Shown here in pieces: positions 6,019 to 24,800 of a stretch of DNA of 64,000 nucleotides. The notes under the pieces were generated by a model, which was not told where the DNA came from, ran no database searches, and saw only the letters and a program-made list of their open reading frames with translations. Source of the DNA: Lytechinus variegatus (taxonomy: Eukaryota; Echinodermata; Echinoidea; Temnopleuroida; Toxopneustidae); NCBI RefSeq assembly GCF_018143015.1, contig NC_054746.1, forward strand, positions 29,291,129 to 29,355,128. The letters run 5' to 3'. The translations under genes were made by a program, and so were the position numbers. Position 1 is the stretch's first letter, and each line of letters begins with the position of its first letter.

Positions 6019-6337
6019 GGACAAAAATGTATAGACTCTTTAACAAACCAATGTATTTGATTTTTCTTTTTCTTTTCTACTTAAGAAATATGTTTAAAAA
6101 ATCAATTAAACTAGTGTGAAAAAAATCCTTTCACTGTAATCAGTCAATAAATGTTAAGAATGTAGACATTTTAAAACAATAAATGCCAATATCAAAATAT
6201 CTACCTATCTCAAGGTGAATCTTGTCATCCCAGTAATACTATGAAAAAATACACTGGGAAAATGTAGGTCACCTATCTTCATTTAGATAATATACATATA
6301 GCTCCTTGGACTATTCCCCTGTACTGATCGGTATATT

Positions 6338-6394
6338 GGCATCAAATCTTACCCAGCATGCTTTGCAGCTTTACGGCAAGATCATCATAGGCCC
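6338..6394 (-). promoter_or_regulatory. SECIS element of SELENON (type II form)
   Basis: Read on the minus strand this 57-nt stretch folds as a canonical eukaryotic SECIS. The 5' core is A plus TGAT at 6388-6384 (an ATGA start) and the 3' core is TGAT at 6344-6341, so both carry the conserved GA. Between them is helix II: GATCTTGCC (6383-6375) pairs with GGTAAGATT (6353-6345), nine pairs with two G-U. Eleven nucleotides after the 5' quartet is the unpaired AA (6372-6371). Above it AGCTGC pairs with GCA-T-GCT through a triloop AAA, the extra mini-helix that defines type II. Below the core GGC pairs with GCC. It sits about 1.3 kb after the SELENON stop, where the SBP2-binding element that directs Sec insertion is expected. 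Confidence 0.82.
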
Positions 6395-7061
6395 TATCAG
6401 AGGGAAGATAGTCCAAGATTCTAAGATGTGCCATATCTCTTCAAAACATCCCCCATCAATAAACTTGTACTAAAATCATGACTAAATATGAAAAGAAGCA
6501 CCTGTTCATGATTTACAATCATCAATAATAAATATTCAAATGAAAAAAACAACCCAAAGTACAGCTAAAAGAGCTAAAGAGTATTTCCATTATCAAGGCA
6601 TGAAAAAGAAATTCCATCAGAGTTAGGGCAAGAATGAGCATGAGATCATTTTGCTACTACACACACATGGACAAGACTCCATAGCAAGTATATAAGATAA
6701 TGTATTGGGCTCTGTAACCTAAAAAAGATTCAATCAATTGTTCTCCATAGTTTTACAATGATGGTCAATGTCATAATTGATTGTATTGTTGTGCTTAATA
6801 CTTTGGCATATTAGAATTTAAAAAAAAATATTCATCTAAATTTTGAACTCTAACTTTCCTTTTGTTTTTCAATCATTATTTTAGGGTTAGAGAATGACTT
6901 CAAGATTAATTTCAGTTTGATGGATTAAGACTACAGAATACTATATGATCTAGCTCGTCAATGACTTGTCTGTGACTGAGTGAGAGGCAGTATGTCGACA
7001 CATCCGTTGTCTTTTGAGGCGAATTGCAAGAATTATTGTAAAGATTACTAGGTCGAAACTT

Positions 7062-7702: not shown

Positions 7703-8859
7703 TTAGAAACCAACTGCCTCAGCTTTACTGATGCCTTCCTTTAAGAACTTTGCGTAGTTGGTTACCAATGGATCTGTGAATGTACTGTAGGAAAAGAGAA
7801 AGATTTTAATAGAGATTTATGAATTGAACTTTCCGGGAGATATTAATGATAGTAACATTGCACACAGTCTGTACTAAACTGCTAATGAAAAACATTTGTA
7901 CCTCATGGGCAACAATCTCTTTACTAATGATCTCTTGAAAATACAACAGCTACAAAATAAATCATGAATGTTCTTAAAATTTGAAAATGCTTAGAAATAA
8001 TATTTATGACAATGATGCTAAATTAGATCTATTGATATACTAATTTCAGGGCACATGGAACATTATGAGTACTCGTAATGAAGTTGTGGATGAACATGTG
8101 TTCATTTTCAGGTAAATGTAATTATACAAGCTCTGCTTTTCAGTTGGCCCTCCCTCCCTTTCAATTATTTATATTTCGATTTGATAATATTGTCTATTGT
8201 AATTTTATAATGTTATCAATGTTAATATGTCAATTGTATCATAATTGTAAATATGAAATTGAAAGTGGAAAATAAAATAATTGAATTAAAATTGAATTGA
8301 ATGCCTAAGAATGCGAATGCAACAAAACACCATCCATTCATCACTGCTGCTTAGTTGTATGGCAGCACATTATTTTTTATCAATAAATCTCAGATGTAAG
8401 TCTGTATATGGGGTTATAACAATCCAAAATATTAATGAAACTATTTGACTTTTTCATAAATGAGCACATCTACTGGTTTGACAAATTAACTTAATATGAA
8501 AGACAAGAAATCTTACTTACTCAAGTATGCCTGCATTATCATTATTACTGGCATCCAGTAAATCATTGGCATTGATGTGATGAATAACAGTTCCATTTGG
8601 CAATGATACAAGCATTTCTACTGGAAAACTGGATGGAGAAACAGAAGAAATTGAAATCGTTATATATCTATATCTCAGTTTTAACCTATCAAGCTTAAAA
8701 TGTATTAGTATTTTTCAAATGTGATGATGATATAATATCAACAGGGAGTTGTAGAAAAGTTTCTAGAAAGAACCATGTGTAATTAATGCATAGTATAAAG
8801 GGGGCTGGTAGAATCTCTGACGAAATGGGTAACACCATTTTAGTTACATATAACAATCC

Positions 8860-8896
<37 letters not shown>

Positions 8897-11800
8897 AATC
8901 ATCATCGTCATCATCATCATAATCATCATCGTCACCATCATCCACATCCCCCTGGAATGGGATACAAATCTTAATCATTTCCTGTCATGGAAACCATGTT
9001 TTCATCACCTCTCAACACCAAGAGCTTAGCCGTCTCCCCAATACCTCTATAAGTATGATTCTCCCTTTTACAAATTCTTTTATTAATGGCTATTCCCATG
9101 ACCAGAAGTAAAAAAACACATTCTGACAGTTCGTATTTCACTGTCAAAAACGGAATGTTAGGTAGTTCTCCATCAGCCGGAGTTTGTTCAATCTCAAGAA
9201 TCTAGCCCAATCAGTCCTCTTTGGGATTAACAACCTTTAGAGACCAATTGGATGTTTCATGAAAGTTGTCAGCACTGACTAAATTGACAGTGCTGACAAT
9301 TTCAGTGAAATCCTTGGTTTTGATTGGCTTAAAGGCACTGGCCTCTGACTGTTACTACGGTAACTGTCAGAGAAAGACAACTTGTAAGTGCTGACAACAG
9401 TCCCCTGAAGACATCTTTACCTGTCAAATAGCAGCATATTACATACACAAGATATGAAGCTATTTTGCAAATAATCGTAACTTGTCTAGAAATTCCAATC
9501 TCAAAATAAAGAGAAAGATATGTCCCAATAATTGCATCCCTATCACAAATAATATCAAGATCTCATATCAATTACTAAATATATGAATATCATTCTTATA
9601 ATAAACTTACTTATATTTTTCTAATGACATAGAAGCTAATGCTGCATACTGAGGGTCACTTTCATTCTGTTTGATGACCTCCAGGTCAGCTACGAGTGAC
9701 CAGCTGCTGACAAAATGGTTGCCTAGCAACTGAAGAACGGGCGGACTTTCAAGAGACGTCTCTCGTAAAGTCCGCCCCGAACCTGGGGAAATAAGTTAAA
9801 ACACAATAGAACAGTGATTAAAATGAACTATAAATTCTGTGTAATATTTAACACATTTGTAACTGATACTCATAAAATGGATGAATGACATATTTGAAAG
9901 CTGGGTCAAAGAGAAAATGAAATTATCACAACATCAAAGAAAAAAATCAAAAGATAAATCACTGACTTCGAAGACTGTTCACTTGTTTTAGCTTTGAGTG
10001 TTGTAGTTTTAATTACTATTATTTGGATTTCACATACATGTTCTCTAAATTACAATTAATATTATAAACTCAACCATAGAATACATCATCATTTTGAGCA
10101 ATTTTACAATAGTGGGGACGGAAAGCGTGACATCAGACTGAAAATATAAATTCCTTGATAAAATGCTCTTAACACACTGAGTTATTAATAAACATTCATG
10201 AGATATCCATATAACCAGGGGAGACAGTTCAAGAGGTCTCTAATGACATGAACATACTTTGAATTTTTTCTTCAGTATGGGTTGCTATTGGCATTTTCAT
10301 GAATTATTCTTGGTGTCCACCATAACAAATGTTACATGAATTAGAGGATTAGCTTATTTTCTTCATGCAAAAACTCAATATCTCCAAGTGTTTAGTTTGC
10401 ATAAAACATACATTTTGTACTGTATTAAAATCTTAACATAAGGAAAGAACTGATCTGAAAGCATTACCAATTCAATTCAATTAATTTATTTTCTCTTTCA
10501 ATCTTTTTATATTTACAATGATAGTTCAATATATATATTTACAAAATATAAAATTTAAATCATTTTTATAATACATCAATCATGTGATAGACTACTAAAC
10601 GTTATAAAATGAAATAAAATTATATGAGACTGATAAAATTTGTATTATCATTTCTTTTTCTCAAAAGAAAACAATTTTACCTCAGCAAGACTGATCATCT
10701 AATGCACCCCAGAGTAAGATATGATGAACCAATCTCTTCTCTGCCTGGGCCTTTTTAAATGCTGCATTCAATGGCATATATTCTATCTGAAAGTATATAA
10801 TCAAATATCCACCAAAATAAGGTTAAGTAAATAATTTCTGGATTTAATTGCATTTTTTAAGCAATGCAGGGGAGAGAAAGCATATATATACAAATAGCAT
10901 TGCCTGATACCAAAATGTGATCATTTGCTATAAAAAGCCCATCATAGATGATTTGTGGAACAAAACAGGCTTAAATTAATTAGGAAAAAAAGAAAGAAGC
11001 ACCAAGTGAAAAGTTAACGAAAGCTTTAGTTTTAAAACCATTCCAGAAGTGGACTCAACAGTGCTCATGTGGTGTTAATGATGAAATCTACAAAGAAATA
11101 TCACATATAATTGGAGTTTCATAACAATTTATAAAAGTTACAGTTGAATTTCAAAGAGCTTATTATTTTCTATTAGACATATAAGAAAGGCTCAAAGATG
11201 TATTAAAGCAAATTGTAAAATTCTACAAACCTTCTGGTATGTTGAAATATTCAAATTCTAAAAATGTTCATTGTTGTAATTCTTTGTGATATCCTCCCAA
11301 AGCAATGCAGAATATGTATTTTCTGTTTTTCCCCTAAAGACGATTGCAAACTGTCGCTGGGACGCAAACAACATTTAAAATCACAATTATGGGAAATCAT
11401 TTGTTTAAATGACTGAAGAATCTTTAAAATTATGCTCTGTAAAAATGCCAGCTCTATTTAGAAACATGACACCAAAACACCTTATCAAAGGAACGACCAT
11501 CACATTGGACATAGTTTTGTGGTAGCCACATATTTTTACTCTCTCGAACATTCAATCTTTATGTTCTGTCACTTAATAGCAGCTAAATACTGCCTGCAGC
11601 AAAACTTCCTTTTCTCCTGACCCCACACTGAAGAGATCTCACCTTTTTAAATGGATACATCTCCTTCTCTAACATCCTGAGGGCCTCTTCCATATCAATC
11701 TCTTCATCCCAGTGGATCGGCCCACCTGAAGTCTCTTGCTGATTGGACGGTTCATAGATGACATCACCCGACTCTGAGTATATAGTCACCTGAGAGGATG

Positions 11801-14800
11801 GGTTAGGAGCATTGAGTTCCATCTGTGGCATGAAGCCTATGTCAACCTCCATGTTTTCAACTTCATTGGGACCATTCATCCATTCCATATCTAAACAGAA
11901 GAACATGAATAGATGAATAATGAGTTATTTCACAGCACTTATGGGCTTCAGATGGGTCACTACTGGACCTCCACAAATATTAATTTAAATTTAGCATTGC
12001 CAGTGTAAGGAATTTAGGCATTCCAAGCAAAATATTCATGCGAGGTACTAATTCATACTCTCCTGGGTCAAGTGTGGCAAATGAAAAACAATGTCTTGCC
12101 AATGGGGATATTAAGGCTGTAATGCACCAGGAACATATTTTGAGTCACCACTTTTCTACCAAAACACAGGGGCTGTTGTGCTACAAGGAGATGACCACCA
12201 ATGCCATCATCTTCAAGAGATGAAAAATAAAAGACATAAAAGACAAGAAGGGAGGGGGGGGGGAGAAGAAAGAATAGTATTGGAAAAGATGGATTATTCG
12301 TTGTACATGTAACTGTACCATTTACCAGCAATCATTGTGACTTTTTAAAAAACTCATCCATTACTCTGTGGTGAGAAACATGACTTAATGAAGATTGATG
12401 GATGACATTCCAAGAACTCACCAACATTCAAGCTCTTGTTTGAAGGAACATGCATGTTGAAGTACTCGACGTGTGAGGCATCTTTCCTGATGATAAGATG
12501 ACCTATGAACTGAGCCGGTGTGAACCAGAATGGGTGACTCGGTGGCTCATTCAGTTGAAACTCTGCATGGGTTCTGTGTGAGAAGAGAAGGAATGTTTTC
12601 AAAACATTATCTACTATCACGCCACACTCGATGATAGCATTGTGGGAAAACCAAAACCGGTATAAACTTGTAATAATCTAGGAGTTTACATCATCATCAT
12701 AATAATAAACACAGCATTTATTATGCACCATCTATCTAGTAAACTATTCCGAGGAGCATCATAATAATCTACACTTTCCCACAGGTATCAAATGACTCAT
12801 TATATCAAAGTTGATTTTTGTATAGTGGTATCTGGGAAACTGCATTACACTTCCAATCAATTGTTTAAAATTGTGATACAAGTAGTGTAGCACACTAATT
12901 TCAATCCATTTGTTAATATTTTGGTCAACAAAAATATCTGGGAGGTACTTAATAAAAAATTAAATATGATTAAAATACAGTCATCTGTATTAGTGCAAGA
13001 ATACAGTCATCTGTAAGTGCAATAATACTCTTGATATTTAATATCAAATCTCATTGCTAAATGATACACAATGGCAAGCATGATCTGAGCATCTAACCAA
13101 TGCTGTAATATACCTGAGAGGCAGCTGGAAATTAAACGATAGTTTAAGATATGCCATAATACACATTTGTTTAAACATAATAGTAATTTTTAGGAAGTGT
13201 TTTACCAACATAATATGTATAATGTACACGTGTATGCTATTGTGTTTGTTTTTGTTTCTAACATTGATCTTTACCCATGTCCTGATACACAATGAATCTA
13301 GGTATAACATAAAATCATTGATTACCTAAAGACAATATCCAGATATTCTGCACTGACCGCCTTCACGACTGCCACGGTACCCTGTGGACCGAACCTGGAG
13401 TGGACAAACGGCCTTGAGTGGAAGACGTTGAGTAGCCTATGGATGATGATCTCCTTGCCTTTGACCCTTGGTGGGTAGTAACGGTTACTGGACAGCTGGT
13501 TGGTCATCATACTGAGTTTAGATTTGATGATGGTGTAGACCTTGCCAACCTGGACATGGTTCTCTGGAAGGAGTGGACGGAAGGCACTGGCTGGGAAGGC
13601 AGTGACCGGTTCGTTGGGTGTCATCCAGCCATCCAGTGAGGACAGAGATGACCTGCTGGTCTGAAAGATCACAAGGAACAGGATGTTAGGATTATTTATG
13701 TTTTAGTTACCATTTATGGGAATATTTTGCATGCAGAATGAAGAAATACATGTACACACAAAAAAAAAATCACTCGGCTGATCACATGTAATATGGCCCA
13801 TTAGTAAATAATACTTTCACACAAAACAAAGAATCACAAATTACTTAACATGAAAATTTTTATCATGGGAAAAAAGATCATGGAGACATGATACCTCAGT
13901 CGGTATAATGGTGGGCTGGCAATCTTGTGACCTGGTTCAATACCCACTTGTTGTGCTATAGCCCTTTGATAAGACATTTACCCCTTTTACCAGGTCACTC
14001 TGTGAGGACCTCAAGCCTTTGGTATTTAGAATCATTTATGCTTTTTTAGCAGTCAGATAAAAAATCAACTTCTATGGAAAGTCAGTAATTTTCACATACA
14101 TGTATTTGTACTAGTATGTAGTACATTTTGAATAAACAAAACAAAATCAAGAGCAAACTTACAACATCACAAAAGAAATAGCAATTTGTAAATTTTATGG
14201 CCTTAATTCTTTTGAGACTCGGGTACAGAAGAAAAAGATATTTTAGCATATTAGGCCATTAGATCAAGACAATATACTTGTTATTCTTATTTAATTATTC
14301 CTGCATACAATGGTCTGTTTCAACTGATTGACTAATTAGCTATAAAAACTTTAGGTGATTATACAGACACAGAATTCATACAATGAAAAATCAAATTATA
14401 ATACTTCATGTATTGTGTTGAAAAAGTACAGTTAACTTGCAGAGAAAAAAGTAAATTTAATATGGTACTCTTTGGACATGCATTATGCATACATTGTAAA
14501 ACATTCATCATAAGTCATAACATCAAATAAAAAGATGTAATGATTGTTGAACACGAAAAAATACCTGCAAAAAACAAAGAAATTCTATGGGATGAATATG
14601 TGTCACATATCCATGGAACCATCGTAATAGGTCCATGATGGAACCAATCAAAATATAGTCATCATTGTTTTCTCAAAAACAATTCAAAATGACAAACAAC
14701 TCTGCAGGTAATCAACATTCTAGCAGAGTAATTTTACACTTTGATTTTTTCTGTGTTATTCTGCTGTAAAATCAGCTGACATCATGACAGCTGATCCAAC

Positions 14801-17800
14801 AATAAAGGTTGTTGACAGACCATTGGTGTTTGAGGATCATTTTGAGAGGAAGAGGGTGATCAGCAATTTGACTATACGCAGCAACATGAATCATCACCAT
14901 CATTATGTTCAAGCAATAAACATTGCTAACACAATACATGTAGACATTGCCATCATGAGTACTTCTTGCATGTTATTTTGGATTATCTCAAGTTTCTTTT
15001 GCAGAAATTATAATCAGAGGACCAAAACACTTTGATGTTTAGAATAAAACTAAAAGGGGGAAAACCCAAACATTCATTTGAGGGCGTTTTCCATTAATCA
15101 AAGGATATACATGTACATGTACATGTAGGCCTACAGTATTATAAGCAAACTGAAAAAAATCCATGTACATGTGTAATTATCATTGTTTACATCAAATTGC
15201 TTCCCATCAATCTTCTCTTTCCCAACTGTAGTCAACAAATTTAGGGCAGGGATGATTATAGGCCTACATGTACAGAGTGAGTAGACATACATTCTGCATC
15301 TTTTTCACTTATCAAATGAATAAAAGTGTCTGAAATCATTAGGATATGAAATTACAAATTTCTAAACTGAATAATTATACAATAAATCAAAAAATAACAT
15401 TACACCAGGAATACAGACTGTAAAAACTGAAAAAATACATGTATGTTGTTTTACATAACGGTAAGTACAACATTTAGACCATAAAACAATGTACATATGT
15501 AGACAAAAAAGTGAAACTATAAAATGGGTCAAAATGACAAATTTGATCCTTTAATTTCCTTCCTGCCTTCCGACAAATATTATTCCAAACCAACACAGCT
15601 GGAATTTCTGAGAGGAATCCAAATGACAGTACAGAATGTAAAAAAAACTTATGTTTCAAACCAATAAATTAAATGAATTTAAAAACCAAGACATTTGAAA
15701 TCATAAGAGGGAGATCAAATGCTCTGTCATACAACATGTTGTCATGTTGTTATTTTGACAACATTTTACATCTTACTGACATGCAAACAATAGTAATAAG
15801 ATTTCTTATTGTTATTGTATATATTTTATATTATTAACCGTATCAGACATCTGAGCAAGGCAACTTTGAAACATTGTTGCCTGCTTAAGACTGGGATCAA
15901 ATTGCCGGTCAATAAAATTCCAATTGTTTATCCACGGGCCCAATTTATTGCCTGCTCAGGAAAGTCAATGAGAAAATGCGTGGAAATGTAGCGGGCAATA
16001 AAAAGCAGCGCTAATATCCGGGTATTCTACGCGTTTTTGCACGCGTCCTTGAACCGCGCAGTGCTATACGTCATAATGGTAATCAAGTTAAGACAACGCT
16101 GGATACTGCGTCCCCAGGCCAGGGACGCGTCATTTCAATTACGTCACAATGGTAAAGTTCAGAGGCCCAGTCTGCTCAACATGATAAACTAAGATTCTCA
16201 TTCTAAAAATTTAAAATATCTAGATTTTAACGATTTTTGCTCTAGATGCCTGATTTGGTTAATAATAGCAATATTGACTGGCCTGGGGGCGAAAGGACAT
16301 ATATCGCCCTCACTAAATTGATATCACCCTCGTCTGCGACTCGGGCGATATATGTCGTATCGCCCCGAGGCCAGTCAATATTGCTTTAATGTTTCGTTTA
16401 CATTTTTACTGAGAAGAGTGGGGTGAGAAACCCCCTCAGTCCCTGTGGTTCCTTGGTCCCAATATGATACTCCAAGGGTGCATTTTGATTCTGCAGAACC
16501 CAATCTAGGATAAAGTTAAATTGAACGCACCAAAGATGCCATCATGATTCTATATTGATTAAATGCATCGTTAGCCATAGTCTCAGGGGAATAGGCCTAC
16601 CTACCTACTGTAGATGTAGTGACTGAAGGTCTCAGGTCGACAAATCACATAATTGCGTGATTTATAGTCACCTTGCTTTTACATAAAGTATGTGTATGTA
16701 CATGTAAATGCAGGAAGTGACAGAGCATTTTTCATCATGAAAGTTTCTATAATTTTGTTGTGAGGAGATTTATTACAGACCTTTTCCTCCTTTTTGTTAA
16801 TACATGGAAATGTCTCAGCAAACTTAATGCCAACTACCATGAGATTTTACGTTTAATGTAAAACAAAGAGGCATAACAAATAAAAAAATTACTTAAATGA
16901 ACAAATTGTCTCTGTAACATCTTTTAACCACCCAGTTTGTAAACCCCTAAAATCTGGCTGACTAATCAAAGGGTTTTGAGGAGATATAAACTTATTCAAA
17001 AAAAAATCTGTTCAAAATCCTCATTTGGAGAGACAAAATTATGAGTTAACTTGTCAGCAATTTTTAAAATGTGTTTGAAATGAACAAAATAGAAAAAAAT
17101 ACCATGAGCAGATCTAAAGGCCAAATTATATTATTTTCCTTCAGGATACTAGGACAGTGAGCTGTGGACACATAATGTAGGCCTGTATTCTGAAGGAAGG
17201 TTTAACTTAGACCATGGTCTACAACTGCTAAAATAATAGGAAGCCAAACTTGTCAAAATTATGTTTACATTGTATTCCTCTTCATGGTTTACCATGCTCT
17301 TTTTTTAATTCTTTGATGGTGAAGACAACTTCTTCTTTATCTTCAAAGACAGTTATTTGAAAATCAAATGGGCTTATTCATTTAACCTCTAATCTTACAG
17401 ATTAATGTCACAACTAGCTTTCCATAGTTAAACCACAACTTTAAACCAGATTTTGAATAAAACATGACTTCAGAATACAGGCCATAGAACACAGAATAAA
17501 AAATATACATGTATGAAAATAATTTTAATCTAAAGAGTTTCACTTTCTTGTTAGCAACAACAAATGTCATAATGCTTTGAGAACTTGTGTGATTTGATTC
17601 ATAAATAAAAAATAAATAGATGACTTTAGTTTACATCATGACCTGGTGAAAACTATTCTGCACCCAGTTAAAGCTTACAAATCATCATTAAAACCACCCA
17701 TTATCATATTAATGCAAAAGGTGGAGGGGTACATACATGTACTACAAACAAAATATGAATTCTGATGCCTGTTGCATAAAATAGTAATTCTGCCACCCAA

Positions 17801-20800
17801 CAGTAACTTCCCTGGAAATAATTCCAAGGTACGATAATACGCCAGTGGCGGACTGTACCAGACTGGAAGAAGAATTTTTACGTACCAACTGTTGAGAGGT
17901 GCATGTGCAAGGTTTTTATTTACAATGCTAAACTTTCAATAACATTGGATTCCACCCATGGATACCTCACTGGATGGCAAAATTAGTAAATTACCTGGTA
18001 AGAATAAAATTTATACAACGGGACCATTTCTTTTTCTTACCAAGAATGATTGATCCTTTGATTTGGACATGGTGTCTTGCTGAAGAGGAATAAAGTGTGC
18101 TTCTACAGTCAAGACCTCTTCAGCTGGGTCCAGATCCTCATCGCCATAGGAGAAGTCTCCTCTCTGTTTAAAAAAGAAACAAAAACAAAATAAAGTCAAA
18201 CTATAAGACAGATGTCAAATAACATATTAATACTCCTCCTCAAGATGTCTTGGGTGCAGAAAATAGGTCTACATTGTATTTCTTACAAATGCTTTTTTGA
18301 CAGAAGGTTTCTTTTAGGTTCACAAAATGTTATTCACTTAAATTATGCAGTTACAGCTTTTCAGACCAGGGGAAGAACAGGGTACATGTACATGTGTGTC
18401 TCAATTAAAACAGGAGATACAGTATGTGCAGCAATGCCAATTTTGAGTAGGTGGGAGGGGGAGAGGGGGGCATGTGCCTATCTTCTGGATGAAGATTTGT
18501 GTGAAGGAATTCATACTGATATGTGTCCGGGTTCGATCTCTTGAGACCACAGAGGTTTGTGTGACTTGGGCCGAATACGACTGAGAAGGTGACTGGTGAC
18601 AGATGTACAAATAATACTTAGGCCTACGTGTACATGCTTTGCATACATGTACTACGGTCTGACAAGTGCGTCAACTTCTATGAACCTTAAAAATACAGAT
18701 TTGACTGTATTTTCAGGTTGATTTTTTGTGAATGCAATTGAAAACAGATAAATCTCATTTTTCTACACTACAATACATACACACACTCTGCATCCTCTTG
18801 CACCAAAACACTTTTGTCCCATATCCTAAGAAATTCCTGCCAAATATGTTAAACACAATGAATTGGGAAAAGACATCTCATTCTCAGTGTACACATTTAT
18901 CACAAGGACTGCCGAAAATACAAGACAGATCTAAAACTAATGACGATGAATAGTACCCAGAATAGACAACAAACAATGCTCAACCCAACTACCCAAAAGA
19001 CCTTCTCTCTGTACCAACACACTGTACCTTTCAATTTCATTCACACAATACAATGGTGTTACATAACATTTCATTTGAATATAGGGGAAGAGAAAGAGTT
19101 TGTGTACAAAAGAAGGGCGTGCGTGTAAGCAGGGAGTTCCCAACTCCCTGGTTTAAGACTTGAGTTGAATATCTTTAAAGGACAAGTCCACCCCAGAAAA
19201 ATGTTTACTTGAATGAAAAGAGAACAATCAAACTAGCATAATACAGAAATTTCATCAAAATCGGATGTAAAATAAGTTATGACATATTTTGAAGTTTCAC
19301 CATTTTTCACAAAACAGCACAATTCAGTGACATGCAAATGAGACAATCAATGTCCTCCACTCACTATTTCTTTTGTTTTTTGTTGTTTGAATTATACAAT
19401 ATTTCATTTTTTACATATTTGACAAGAAGGACCAACTTGGCTGAACCATATAGTATCAAACAATGCTAATTCCACATGTTGAGGAGGAATTGAACATTGT
19501 TTCACTTGACATTGAGGAGAAAATTAAAATATTTCCTATTTCATATAATGAAATACAAAAGAAATAGTGAGTGGTTGACCTCATCAGTCTCCTCATTTGC
19601 ATACCAACCAGGATGTCAAACACTGCATACAGTATAACTGTTTTGTGAAATTAAGCGAAACTTTAAAATGCCACAACTTTCTTACTTTACATCTGATTTT
19701 GGTCAACTTTTCAGTGATATGCTTGTTAGATTTTTCTCTTTTTATTCAACTCAACCTTTTGTTGGAGTGGACTTGTCCTTTAACAGTTGAACACATCATC
19801 AGCTTGTCTTTCAAATTGTGTTTTTTAATTATTATTTTGAGACCATACTGTTTGTATCAAGCACATGAAGGCAGTCTATGTAAAAGTTGGTTAACTTTAT
19901 GATACTCGAGACAATCATTGCTGAAACCTATTTTATTACAAGGGAGACATGTTTTACATACTTGCATGTGTATGAAATAACTTTCTTCATGTTAAAAATG
20001 AGAAAGGGAAAATAGAGACAGTGGCATCAGCTCACTTCATGATGGCATGCATATAATTGTTTTTACAGAACTTTATAACATTTGAAATTAATAACTTTAT
20101 TATTTTCCATCAGATTTTCATTGAATTTCAGTATTTTGCTCATTGAATTTTACTCTATTTAGATAGAATTTTCAGCCTGGACCTCTCCTTTAAATGGAAA
20201 TTAAGAAAATGCTTGTCAATGATAAAACAAGTATGAAAAGCAAATGATTCTAGAAGGCATTGGATTCTACAAAAAAAAACTTGCATATTAAAAATACAAC
20301 TTTAGTAAAAATTGAAAATAAAAAAAGAATTCAGGAATCCATTAAAAAATTCAGAAAAGTGTAACATTTAATAAAGTACCAGTAACAAATTTCTCCCCCC
20401 CTTATCTATAATACCTCTTCAGTCTTCTTATGAATATTATGTTTTCATAAGAGACTGAAAAGGCAGATCTATCATCTGGTATTATGGTTAACCATGCACA
20501 GGCCATGCACTTAACATGCATTATGTAATAGAAATCATACCAACGCTTTATCAAAATAATAGCTAAATAATGAAAAAGTTGGTCAACAGAGTTCAAGTAA
20601 CATAGTAAAACACAATTATTTTCCAGACATCATTCATCATCACCACCATCATCATCCATCATCATTATCATTGATCATCAATTCATCATCATCATCACCA
20701 TCAATTCGTCATCATCCTCACCATCCTCCTCCTCCTTATCATCATCATTACCATCACTATCATCATCATCATCATCATCAATATTATGAAAGTTGGAATT

Positions 20801-21200
20801 GGAATACATGTACCTCCGTGCTGTCTTCAATATTCAGTCTTTCTAAGAGAGGTTCAAATTCAATGACATTTAGATGGCCATCGCCATCTCTATCATAAGC
20901 ATTGAAGATGCTAACTCCCTCCTCCCCAATGGTAAGCTTCATTTCCTCCATCACAAATTTCTCCATCATGATTCTGTTTGCGAAGTTGCCAGCCAGCACA
21001 GCAGCCACGGCCACCAAAATGGACAGAAACGTCAGTCCTTTCCACCCGCATCTTCCCCGGTTAGAACGTCTAAAGGTCGGAGGGTATTGATCAGTGGTTT
21101 GGGTAGCAGAATCAACAGAGCCAGTTCCCGCAGAGCTGATGGGGGATCGTCCTTCACCGCCCCGATCATGGGACGGCTTTTTTCGATCTTTCGACGGCAT
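7703..21200 (-). CDS. SELENON: Selenoprotein N (Sec-containing, complete)
   Basis: Nine coding exons on the minus strand: 20814-21200, 18041-18163, 13326-13660, 12422-12573, 11643-11890, 10681-10786, 9611-9782, 8521-8628, 7703-7784. All junctions are AG/GT and phases agree, giving 570 residues (human isoform 1 is 590). SELENON is an ER membrane glycoprotein that acts as a luminal calcium sensor regulating SERCA. Seen here: a membrane segment at about 54-72, a canonical EF-hand loop [12 protein letters not shown] at 103-114, the family signatures [36 protein letters not shown] and [12 protein letters not shown], and the redox centre [11 protein letters not shown] with U (TGA, 10682-10684) at residue 450. 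Three exons follow the UGA, so an unrecoded message should be open to nonsense-mediated decay. The start ATG at 21200-21198 has no in-frame rival. Divergent from AP5M1. Confidence 0.96.
8140..8310 (+). repeat. LINE 3'-end fragment
   Basis: AT-rich tail ending in 'GAAAATAAAATAATTGAATTAAAATTGAATTGAATG', the short-repeat 3' terminus typical of non-LTR retrotransposons in these genomes (the motif is quoted here in part: AATTGAATTAAAATTGAATT). No coding part remains. It lies in the last SELENON intron (7785-8520). Confidence 0.5.
8849..8948. repeat. (CAT/ATC)n microsatellite
   Basis: About 100 bp of CAT triplets with a few CGT and AAT interruptions, inside the SELENON intron between the exons at 8521-8628 and 9611-9782. 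It gives a false His-rich open frame. Confidence 0.95.
9240..9405. repeat. Short interspersed repeat with GTCAGCACTG hairpin
   Basis: Contains a perfect 12-bp inverted repeat, TTGTCAGCACTG (9266-9277) and CAGTGCTGACAA (9288-9299), and further direct and inverted copies of TGTCAG/GTGCTGACAA up to 9400. The layout suggests a small palindromic non-autonomous element; the ends are not clear. Located in a SELENON intron. Confidence 0.5.
9739..9777 (-). promoter_or_regulatory. Sec redefinition element (SRE) stem-loop
   Basis: On the minus strand GGGCGGACTTT (9777-9767) pairs perfectly with AAAGTCCGCCC (9749-9739), an 11-bp stem. The 17-nt loop holds a further self-complementary AGAGACGTCTCT. In the spliced mRNA the stem starts six nucleotides after the Sec UGA (one from exon 6, five from exon 7). 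Human SELENON is known to carry such a stem-loop just 3' of its UGA, promoting Sec insertion over termination. Because the same bases encode [15 protein letters not shown], protein and RNA constraints overlap. Confidence 0.9.
10467..10580 (-). repeat. LINE 3'-tail fragment
   Basis: Plus strand reads CAATTCAATTCAATTAATTT followed by A/T-rich sequence, the reverse complement of the AATTGAATTG tails seen at 8280 and near 49930. Only the tail is left. It lies in a SELENON intron. Confidence 0.4.
10682..10684 (-). other. Selenocysteine codon (in-frame TGA) of SELENON
   Basis: TCA on the plus strand, TGA in the minus-strand frame, between the codons for Cys and Gly in SC-U-GSG. The exon ends one nucleotide later (10681, donor at 10680-10679), so the exon junction falls inside the codon after Sec. 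The conserved family context on both sides of the intron excludes a true stop. Confidence 0.97.
13886..14030 (+). repeat. Degenerate tRNA-like SINE
   Basis: CTCAGTCGGTATAATGGTGG resembles a tRNA A-box region and GACCTGGTTCAATACCCAC a B box, spaced as in a tRNA. The body that follows is unlike the two better SINEs in the window. It lies in SELENON intron 2 and is not a functional tRNA gene. Confidence 0.5.
15930..16390. repeat. GC-richer repeat with long palindrome
   Basis: A patch rich in CG dinucleotides in the AT-rich SELENON intron 2. It holds two diverged copies of an ACGCGTC...TACGTCA.AATGGTA unit (about 16037-16095 and 16122-16157) and then an 18-bp perfect inverted repeat, AGCAATATTGACTGGCCT (16267-16284) and its complement (16368-16385), enclosing a second inverted pair around ATATATCGCCC. 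It looks like the end of a non-autonomous DNA element. Confidence 0.55.
19175..19783. mobile_element. TTAA-flanked palindromic MITE, family A copy 1
   Basis: Starts TTAAAGGACAAGTCCACCCC and ends GTGGACTTGTCCTTTAA, so TTAA flanks both ends (piggyBac- or Kolobok-type target). The two halves are diverged inverted copies of each other over most of about 600 bp. It has no coding capacity and sits in SELENON intron 1. Confidence 0.85.
20047..20196. mobile_element. Family B MITE, one-ended fragment
   Basis: Ends in TTTTCAGCCTGGACCTCTCC followed by TTTAA, a terminus related to that at 40560-40789 (TTTCAGCCCGGACCATCCCT). The inner part resembles family A arms (CAGATTTTCATTGAATTTCAG). Confidence 0.5.
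20636..20784. repeat. (ATC)n microsatellite next to SELENON exon 1
   Basis: Imperfect CAT/ATC/ACC triplets ending about 30 bp from the exon 1 donor (20813-20812). In transcript direction it is a GAT-rich tract at the very start of intron 1, where length changes could affect splicing. Confidence 0.9.
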
Positions 21201-21802: not shown

Positions 21803-24800
21803 ATGGCCCTCCGAGCAATATGGGTGATACCATTGCCAGGCAACGGACCTTCTTCAGTCCTATTTTCAAGGTTGTAAATCGTTTTTACTACGTTACTAGT
21901 TACACTCACTAGAATTTTGAAGAAAAGTTAAGTCAAGACGTTATGACAAACTAGAAGTAGAATTTAGTCTCATCTGATAAGCGATAATCTATTACCATAA
22001 CTATAAAAAACAGTGAGCTGTAACTTACTAACTTACAGCTCACTGTTTTTATAATTATGGTACTAGATAAGAAGAAGTAGATCTACAGGAATATAGATTT
22101 ATCATTTAACAAAGAAATGAATTCTGAATTTGAAAAAAAGGAAAGCAAATTAACAAGGCAACAATAGTCAAAACTGACTAGTTTGCCTATTCAAAATAAC
22201 ATCAACTTTAGATGAGGTAATTTGTCAATGAATGACATATGCTTATACAAGTCATTGCTAATCATACCCATGTACAATGATGTAGGTACTCTATACCGAA
22301 CAGAATTTTGGTCTGAGTGAAGAAGACAATTACAAGAAGAACTTGGCTGTTGGCAATATTGTTTGGAAGTAATGTCAGACAATTACAATTATTTATAGGC
22401 AAAGGCTCTGCCTAAAGACATAATAATTGGGGATTGTCTGACAGCAGTTTGAAGCACAAACCTTTTAGTGGGCCTACTATTATATTGATTTGTGTGATTT
22501 TAAATGATTCCAGATATACCATCTGAATAAAATATTATATTTCTCAGAGAAATTGCAGTGACTCTGTCTGGAGAGAGAGAGGGATGATGCTAAGTGTAAC
22601 AGTACTAATTAAGTTGTTATATCTATCAGGAACTGGGGGGGGGGTTAATTGTGATTTTCTATGTGGTCAGCCCCTTTCAAAACTATTCCATGGCAGTTTA
22701 GATGAGTTGACCCTGTAAGAAAGAAAAAAAGTTTCATGTTCCAGATTTGACATGGATAATATCCAAGAATTTTTTTTGTATTTGTAAAATGAAACATTGA
22801 TTTTTTTTATACAGATTTTTGATAATGAGATTACAAAGCTAAGCAATAAAGTTGATCATCATGATGAAATTCAAATCACAGATCTGAGAGATATTTTATT
22901 CATATAGATATGGATATATTTTTTACCTGTATTATTTTTTTGGTGTGTGTGATCAACATTTGGCAGTCTTGTGTAAAATGAAAATCATTGTTCAATGTTT
23001 AATGCAACAGAAATGTAAACAAAAAATGTTTTCATGCTTGAAATATAATTTTATTACCTCGGATTTTATACTTTTTTAACCACTGTGCAATCTTCATGCA
23101 AACTGACAGGACATACCCGACTGTAGAGAAAAGAGCGAAGATCTATGGAGAAGATGCTGATAGGAATGACTATGTGAAGATTCCAAATGAAATAGAGATC
23201 TACAAAGCTGTAATTGATGAACTTGGTCTGCAGCATCCTTCCCACAAGGTAATCATGCAAGCAAGGTGGAATAATGTTATGTTGATAATACTAGGTATTT
23301 AAATGGAAATATATCTTGACTGGGGATACAAAACCTTGCATGATGCATCCATATTTTTGGAAACTACAGTATACGGTACTCTACAAAATTTGATCTTTTT
23401 TTTATTCTCATGAATATTTGAAATTTTTAATATTGGATTTTTGTCACACGTCAGATGTTATGTTTTGTATAAGAATATTAATCCATCTTTTTAAAACAAT
23501 CATGCATATATATTTTATTGAATTTTTAAAATGTAGTTTTAGATTTACAGTATGCAAGGATTCCAAAGTATGATAAAAATTCAAGGATTAATGTCTTCAT
23601 GGTAAATCGAAATTAGTCAACTTTCTCAAATACACATTTTTAAGAAAGTAACGTGTCTGGTGTCTCCCCCCCCCATGAAAATTATGATAATGTAGTGCAT
23701 TCATGTTTTAAAAATACTTTCCCTAGAACACCTTGTATTAACAGAGTTTTCATATTTGGATGTATTAATTTTTACACTTCTATAAATTTAATCCAACAGT
23801 TTATAGATTCCAGGGATAGCTGTGACAAGGTATATCAGAAACCAATCTTTGAGCTCACTGTCAAAGAAGGGAAGTTATGGCCTGTCATCATGATAGAAAA
23901 GGTAAGAATAATCCAATAATAATAAAATGATAAAGAGTCAAACTTTGCCACGTTTTCACTCTTGTCCTTTCTGTTTGTATCTATCAAGCTCCTCCCCCCC
24001 TCACTCGAGCACTCTTTTACCATTTCCCTTGCTTCTGTCTAATCTGTGACTCCATTTGAAATCTGTAATTGCTTTGTCTGCTCGTTTCATAGAAGCATCC
24101 ACAAACTTGATTTTGCTATTCATTGAGAATTTATTAAAATTAAATGAAATACTGCCAAACCTATTCAATATCATAGTACGTTTGAATTAATGTGTTGGAA
24201 ATGTGCTTTTTAGTTTGTCCAATTGATATCCTGGGTTTATGTGTTTTCTATTACATTTGACTATGATTTTCTTTATTTAAAGGTGATTTATGAAAAAAAA
24301 AACTTCCCATGATTTTCCTTCAAGATTACAGATCTATCTTAGGCTTTTTTATTCGTAAAATCCATGAAAATATGAAAAAAGTTATTTATCATCATGTAGG
24401 CCTATATTTGAAGAGAGGAGAAACATGTTTATTGATTTCATTGTATTGATGTAATCCATTTACCATTTTCTTAATAGTTTGGATTATTATACATTTGCCT
24501 GCCTGTGGTTGAATTGACTTCATCATCCAGACCACCTCTCATTGATATGTGAGTTCTTTTTATCATAAGTTAATGTTTTGACTACCAAATTCTGCAACTT
24601 TCATATATGTTGTGCATAAGAGTAAGACCACCTTTACAATGCTTTAATCTGTTATCTAACTGTGGTGCTATAAAACAACTTTACTATGCCATGCCAAATT
24701 AACTTTCCAAATATATTCCTGATTTTTGAAGAAAGCCATATTGATTTGTATTTCCAATTAGCTCTGTTGTATTGTGACAATATGTGTTATTACTATTAAG

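Follow-up and report, generated by a model that had tools for sequence, protein, structure and literature searches.

The selenocysteine redefinition element (SRE) of human SELENON is a hairpin whose start was reportedly placed 6 nt downstream of the Sec UGA by Howard 2005. A review states that the stem, the loop, and the spacer of this element all matter for Sec insertion (PMC8704476), and the substitution R466Q (c.1397G>A) has been counted among SRE mutations (PMC3541580). Exon 10 of the human gene holds the UGA and exon 11 holds c.1397 (PMC8967691), so that an intron separates the UGA from this SRE base in human. For the hairpins of bacterial SECIS elements (bSECIS), five constraints have been described, including a G in the first two apical-loop positions and a loop located 16 to 37 nt from the UGA (PMC13188914). 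A third type of coding hairpin beside a Sec UGA, the SRE or HRE of the SPS genes, was proposed by Mariotti et al. 2015 to descend from bSECIS, although SPS is another gene family and the HRE occurs in genes without a SECIS (PMC4561486). The SelN family itself was described as apparently specific to animals by Lobanov 2007 (PMC2375036), is tabulated for sponge, sea anemone, limpet, annelid, and amphioxus (PMC3473315), and has been reported in algae (PMC7539508).

We analyzed a 64-kb stretch of Lytechinus variegatus DNA (hereafter, the window) and found that a gene on its minus strand is SELENON, with a strong hairpin directly downstream of the Sec UGA in the spliced message. We assign a probability of about 0.88 to its being the selenocysteine redefinition element of the sea urchin SELENON mRNA. 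The features of the locus are as follows:

7703 to 21200, minus strand: SELENON coding region in 9 exons, its start codon at 21200 being a guess
21200-20814, 18163-18041, 13660-13326, 12573-12422, and 11890-11643, minus strand: SELENON exons, from tblastn and GT-AG boundaries
10786-10681, 9782-9611, 8628-8521, and 7784-7703, minus strand: SELENON exons, continued, from tblastn and GT-AG boundaries
10681 to 10786, minus strand: exon with the Sec UGA, terminating 1 base past the UGA
10682 to 10684, minus strand: Sec codon TGA, in the context TCT TGC TGA G, followed by the intronic gt
9611 to 9782, minus strand: exon with the hairpin, running to LEKY
9739 to 9777, minus strand: probable SRE hairpin, with 11 bp, a bulged A, 6 bp, and the loop ACGU
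6335 to 6397, minus strand: candidate 3′UTR SECIS (SECIS_1, 24.1 bits, E 0.55; Rfam gathering score 35)

With the human protein as query, tblastn located SELENON blocks spread over nine exons, from 21041 down to 7724, and GT-AG splicing joined them into an uninterrupted frame with a single in-frame TGA ahead of the stop. The predicted protein is 51% identical to the human one; the SCUG motif, interrupted in the urchin by a phase-1 intron, falls in the same column, with the UGA at the position of the human Sec. An EF-hand model (PF13405) matched the urchin protein at E 2.7e-4 and 20.9 bits, against a cut-off of 25, and the 92-aa Sec region gave no match in PDB at E up to 1. When the urchin's own genome was searched with the 121 residues around Sec, three matches were obtained, all within this gene, and no second SELENON copy was found with this query. 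Rfam at gathering thresholds had no match anywhere in the 64-kb window. The SECIS candidate lies ~1.3 kb past the SELENON stop codon in genomic DNA and contains the core segments in their expected succession (AUGA, AAA, UGAU), while the fold of its surroundings is unexceptional (z −1.1). Two tRNA-Sec loci scored over the cut-off in the own genome. Separately, 11 equal weak matches to the tRNA-Sec model (42.5 bits, below the cut-off) occur ~2-6 kb apart at C1:39134615-39167154 and may represent an array of a different tRNA. The Rdx family PF10262, which comprises kin of SELENOT/W, matched one exon in the own genome, and this exon has no TGA.

The initial annotation had described a perfect 11-bp stem at 9739-9777 beginning six mRNA nucleotides after the UGA, and both the coordinates and the spacing turned out to be exact. 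The inverted repeat GGGCGGACTTT/AAAGTCCGCCC encloses a 17-nt loop. As this loop pairs internally, the full hairpin is larger than had been described, consisting of 11 bp, a bulged A, a further 6 bp, and the loop ACGU. The exon with the UGA ends in ...TGC TGA G at 10681 and the next exon starts with GT TCG GGG at 9782, such that removal of the intron places the beginning of the stem exactly 6 nt past the UGA in the mRNA, which reads UGA GGUUCG GGGCGGACUUU A CGAGAG ACGU CUCUUG AAAGUCCGCCC. The 39-nt hairpin folds at −28.0 kcal/mol (z −6.9), and folding of the spliced mRNA, which had been proposed as a check, gave −36.6 kcal/mol for a 63-mer (z −5.6).

The strength of the hairpin exceeds what the encoded protein imposes. 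Upon recoding the peptide with synonymous codons, only 1 of 20,000 codon-usage-weighted sequences was as stable as the hairpin (mean −9.1 kcal/mol), and none of 20,000 was as stable when codons were drawn uniformly. Within the SELENON coding sequence, the hairpin is the best 39-nt window, as the next non-overlapping window reaches −16.9 kcal/mol. Codons containing CpG, tallied over the S, R, T, P, and A codons, account for 5 of 9 within the hairpin versus 24 of 172 elsewhere in the gene (p 0.006). The recoding test and this CpG excess support the earlier suggestion that stem pairing constrains the codons.

Several lines of evidence support the SRE reading, namely homology to SELENON over 9 exons, the UGA at the human Sec, the 6-nt spacing, a fold beyond that of synonymous recodings which is also the strongest hairpin of the coding sequence, the SECIS candidate, the two tRNA-Sec loci, and the failure to find a second gene copy. 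We counted against it that the SECIS candidate scores below the Rfam gathering score within a surrounding fold of z −1.1, and that the peptide itself favors some pairing at the hairpin site. The urchin and human systems share the gene, the 6-nt spacing (as reported for human), and an intron past the UGA, which in human falls somewhere before c.1397; the human 3′UTR SECIS has a candidate counterpart in the urchin, and the urchin stem has 11+6 bp with one bulge. The gene, spacing, strength, and codon-preserving test together lend good support to the original identification as a SELENON redefinition element. Its placement in a non-vertebrate host was likewise right: the mitochondrial contig shows codon usage and a gene order that we take to be the echinoderm code and an echinoid-type order, making an invertebrate correct and a sea urchin most likely. 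This contig is C33, 15,693 bp long, in a genome of 870 Mb and 33 contigs. Its COX1 contains 12 TGA codons and, by eye, has AAA where the SNIAHAG stretch has its invariant Asn; also by eye, the gene order over 4 kb is 16S, cox1, a tRNA, nad4L, and cox2.

By analogy with the human element, the urchin hairpin would act on the ribosome and promote redefinition of the UGA. Splicing would join the UGA and its following G to the next exon and thereby place a strong stem-loop 6 nt downstream, which the ribosome would meet while the UGA occupies the decoding site or its vicinity. There, the stem-loop may disfavor termination and favor Sec-tRNA delivered by EFSec/SBP2 from the 3′UTR SECIS.

The comparison with bSECIS was made possible by bacterial relatives of SelN. 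A first scan of bacterial genome contigs found no relative. In a second one, which drew on a 52-residue SelN alignment but used just two short peptide patterns, the one real match lay in a Candidatus Poribacteria MAG, whose protein is 32% identical to urchin and human over ~300 residues; the other locus retrieved (L009) was rejected as a wrong-frame chance match. Given the narrow patterns, other bacterial phyla may also have SelN. We then covered the Poribacteria-labelled phylum and a control phylum, that of L009, by profile search. SelN matches at E 1e-5 or better were present in 64 of 84 genomes of the former, with up to 18 matches per genome, where a single gene can yield several. TGA was found in 148 of 150 among the matches listed; 136 of these 150 had a single TGA as their sole stop, 12 had a TGA plus another stop (9 TAG, 2 TAA, and 1 second TGA), and 2 had none. 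In the control phylum, 10 of 292 genomes gave matches of 26-31 bits over ~70 positions, without a TGA. The Poribacteria-labelled phylum decodes Sec: among 81 genomes drawn from it, selB scored over the cut-off in 74 and tRNA-Sec in 72, the two often lying near each other on one contig. Additional SelN paralogues with TGA stand in tandem on a contig of the same Poribacteria MAG (C41:68060-72278, L011-L014), some bacterial SelN proteins have, by eye, hydrophobic signal-like or lipobox-like N-termini, and one of three proteins scanned (L039) carries a C-terminal AhpC/TSA, redoxin-type domain.

Searches of plasmids and phages did not find SelN, nor did two protein scans of viral contigs reveal a relative; five viral loci retrieved with two UGA-containing DNA patterns proved, by translation, to be chance matches. 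A bacterial SelN protein had no match in the urchin's own genome, indicating that one bacterial sequence is too distant for this search method. A word search for bacterial SelN in the available text of PMC9312934, PMC13188914, PMC12013277, PMC5029168, and PMC2398784 gave no hit, and bacterial or Poribacteria SelN was not found in the literature searched, most subscription literature lying outside this scope, which leaves novelty unproven. A planctomycete paper retrieved with 'selenoprotein N' held the term in a reference title only, and papers retrieved by guessed letters of the human SRE were, judging by their titles, apparently unrelated.

The bacterial SelN genes carry a covarying bSECIS after the UGA. 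From 114 loci we collected 143 unique UGA contexts, of which 136, all with the UGA at the homologous Sec, fitted C-U-[GA]xGK and were kept, corresponding to 127 unique 57-mers. Plain folding of the 45 nt after the UGA placed the main helix in register 53 in 71 contexts, in register 51 in 37, and elsewhere in 28 (n = 136). Each 57-mer was then assigned to its better-pairing register, so that the following figures arise partly by construction: the helix 18-23:28-33 (nt after UGA) was paired in 359 of 360 cells across 60 57-mers, and the type-B helix 18-24:29-35 in 465 of 469 cells across 67. Double changes numbered 6 and 4 in these two helices, respectively, versus shuffle maxima of 4 and 2. When the two sets were thinned to diverse sequences (33 of the 57 and 25 of the 62 unique 45-mers), 99.5% and 97.7% of the cells paired, and the covariation score was reached by 0 and 1 of 500 shuffles. 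Each thinned set retained 2 pairs with double changes, a number that 33 and 16 of 500 shuffles, respectively, also attained; sliding the partners by +2 in the second of these sets likewise gave 2 such pairs. With the helix assigned beforehand rather than predicted, 118 of the 127 contexts lay within all five bSECIS constraints, the other 9 departing from them on energy only. Rfam did not list these hairpins at the 4 loci tried.

The bacterial and urchin hairpins both immediately follow the UGA in homologous genes, over the same codons, in peptides that align without gaps (GSGRTLRET in the urchin, GSGKxLRAG in bacteria). The loop spacing is 23 or 24 nt in bacteria and 24 nt in the urchin, inside the bSECIS limit of 16-37 nt; the urchin upper helix 19-24:29-34 has the register of the type-B helix, and the bSECIS axis falls within 1 nt of the upper-helix axis. 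In contrast to the urchin hairpin, the bacterial ones have 6-7 bp, a G-containing loop (AGGU, AGUU, GGUC), and no long lower stem.

Two accounts of this likeness have to be weighed. One is that the animal hairpin arose independently, which we consider an evenly balanced proposition. A stem ~6 nt downstream of a stop codon would aid recoding, and GRTLRE..LES would be easily coded as a stem. Consistent with this, 2,598 of 20,000 recodings of the urchin peptide folded strongly, of which 43% lay within registers 51-53 and 4.5% precisely in register 53; the conserved peptide alone thus predisposes to a hairpin in the observed register. Models built from the bacterial hairpins found no counterpart at the RNA level, and the lower stem and the loop differ. 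An independent origin sits less well with the observed strength, which is far beyond what the peptide gives, and with an axis 25.5-26.5 nt past the UGA in both lineages, even though bSECIS loops may, by the published limits, start anywhere from 16 to 37 nt away.

The other account holds that the SelN selenoprotein spans the bacterial-eukaryotic divide and that the SELENON SRE is a relic, a remodelled surviving bacterial SECIS, which we regard as unlikely. SelN would have come from, or been shared with, bacteria in which a post-UGA SECIS hairpin binds SelB; the eukaryotic 3′UTR SECIS would then have taken over, with the coding hairpin kept as a helper and lengthened at its base. Such a descent is favored by the prevalence of UGA-containing SelN and of SelB and tRNA-Sec in the Poribacteria-labelled phylum, by the covariation, constraints, and spacing of its hairpins, by the type-B register of the urchin upper helix, and by the publication of the same idea for SPS genes (PMC4561486). 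Against it, the bacterial covariance models missed the urchin hairpin, which was absent from their matches across the whole window (the best score in 9700-9800 was −1.3 bits, off the hairpin); the loop ACGU has no G at either of its first two positions, contrary to the bSECIS rule; the 11-bp lower helix lacks a bacterial counterpart; and the share of recodings in registers 51-53 shows how readily the peptide yields this placement. A tree of 17 rows (15 bacterial representatives and 2 animals) joined the animals between two bacterial subfamilies on a long stem of 1.34, and midpoint rooting placed them with one subfamily at a support of 100/100, but this outgroup-free tree is compatible with transfer in either direction; for all 138 rows, FastTree issued a warning about long branches. 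The reported presence of SelN in algae (PMC7539508) means that a simple transfer from bacteria to animals is not the sole possible history. Overall, the evidence for descent from bSECIS is weak, and convergence is the more likely account, with descent being possible.

For the function of the hairpin, a role in the pre-mRNA beside the 3′ splice site rather than on the ribosome was considered because the hairpin begins 5 nt into the exon; we judge it very improbable, as the resemblance to the known human element and the distance from the UGA suffice as an explanation, and none of our analyses favored a splicing role. That the hairpin reflects chance, a mobile element, or an assembly artefact is more improbable still, being contradicted by the codon-preserving test, by the repeat statistics, and by the search of the own genome. 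Perfect inverted repeats with a stem of 11 bp or more (loop 3-25) number 4 in the 64 kb, the hairpin among them, and 2 have a stem GC of at least 50%, again including the hairpin, where a Markov expectation from 6 simulations is 1.2 in total and 0 GC-rich. When 9600-9900 was searched against the own genome at the DNA level, a procedure that passes over very common words, it returned only the same locus and the hairpin's own reverse complement. Elsewhere in the window, a 12-bp perfect inverted repeat (TTGTCAGCACTG) at 9266-9299, in the SELENON intron that precedes the penultimate coding exon, may be a small mobile element, and an 18-bp perfect inverted repeat with a loop of 9 lies at 22006-22050, upstream of the guessed SELENON start.

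Returning to the reading of the hairpin as an SRE, its occurrence in an echinoderm makes a great age of the SELENON element plausible and would suggest that it is at least as old as the deuterostome base, while the predisposition of the peptide toward a hairpin in this register makes independent origins possible too. An urchin SRE would offer a compact non-vertebrate test case. The SelN proteins of the Poribacteria-labelled phylum are bacterial relatives of a human disease protein, and they render the idea of descent from bSECIS, published for SPS genes (PMC4561486), testable in SELENON itself, a gene with a functionally characterized SRE. If that idea were true, the SELENON hairpin would be a molecular fossil left behind when control of Sec moved from in-frame elements to the 3′UTR.
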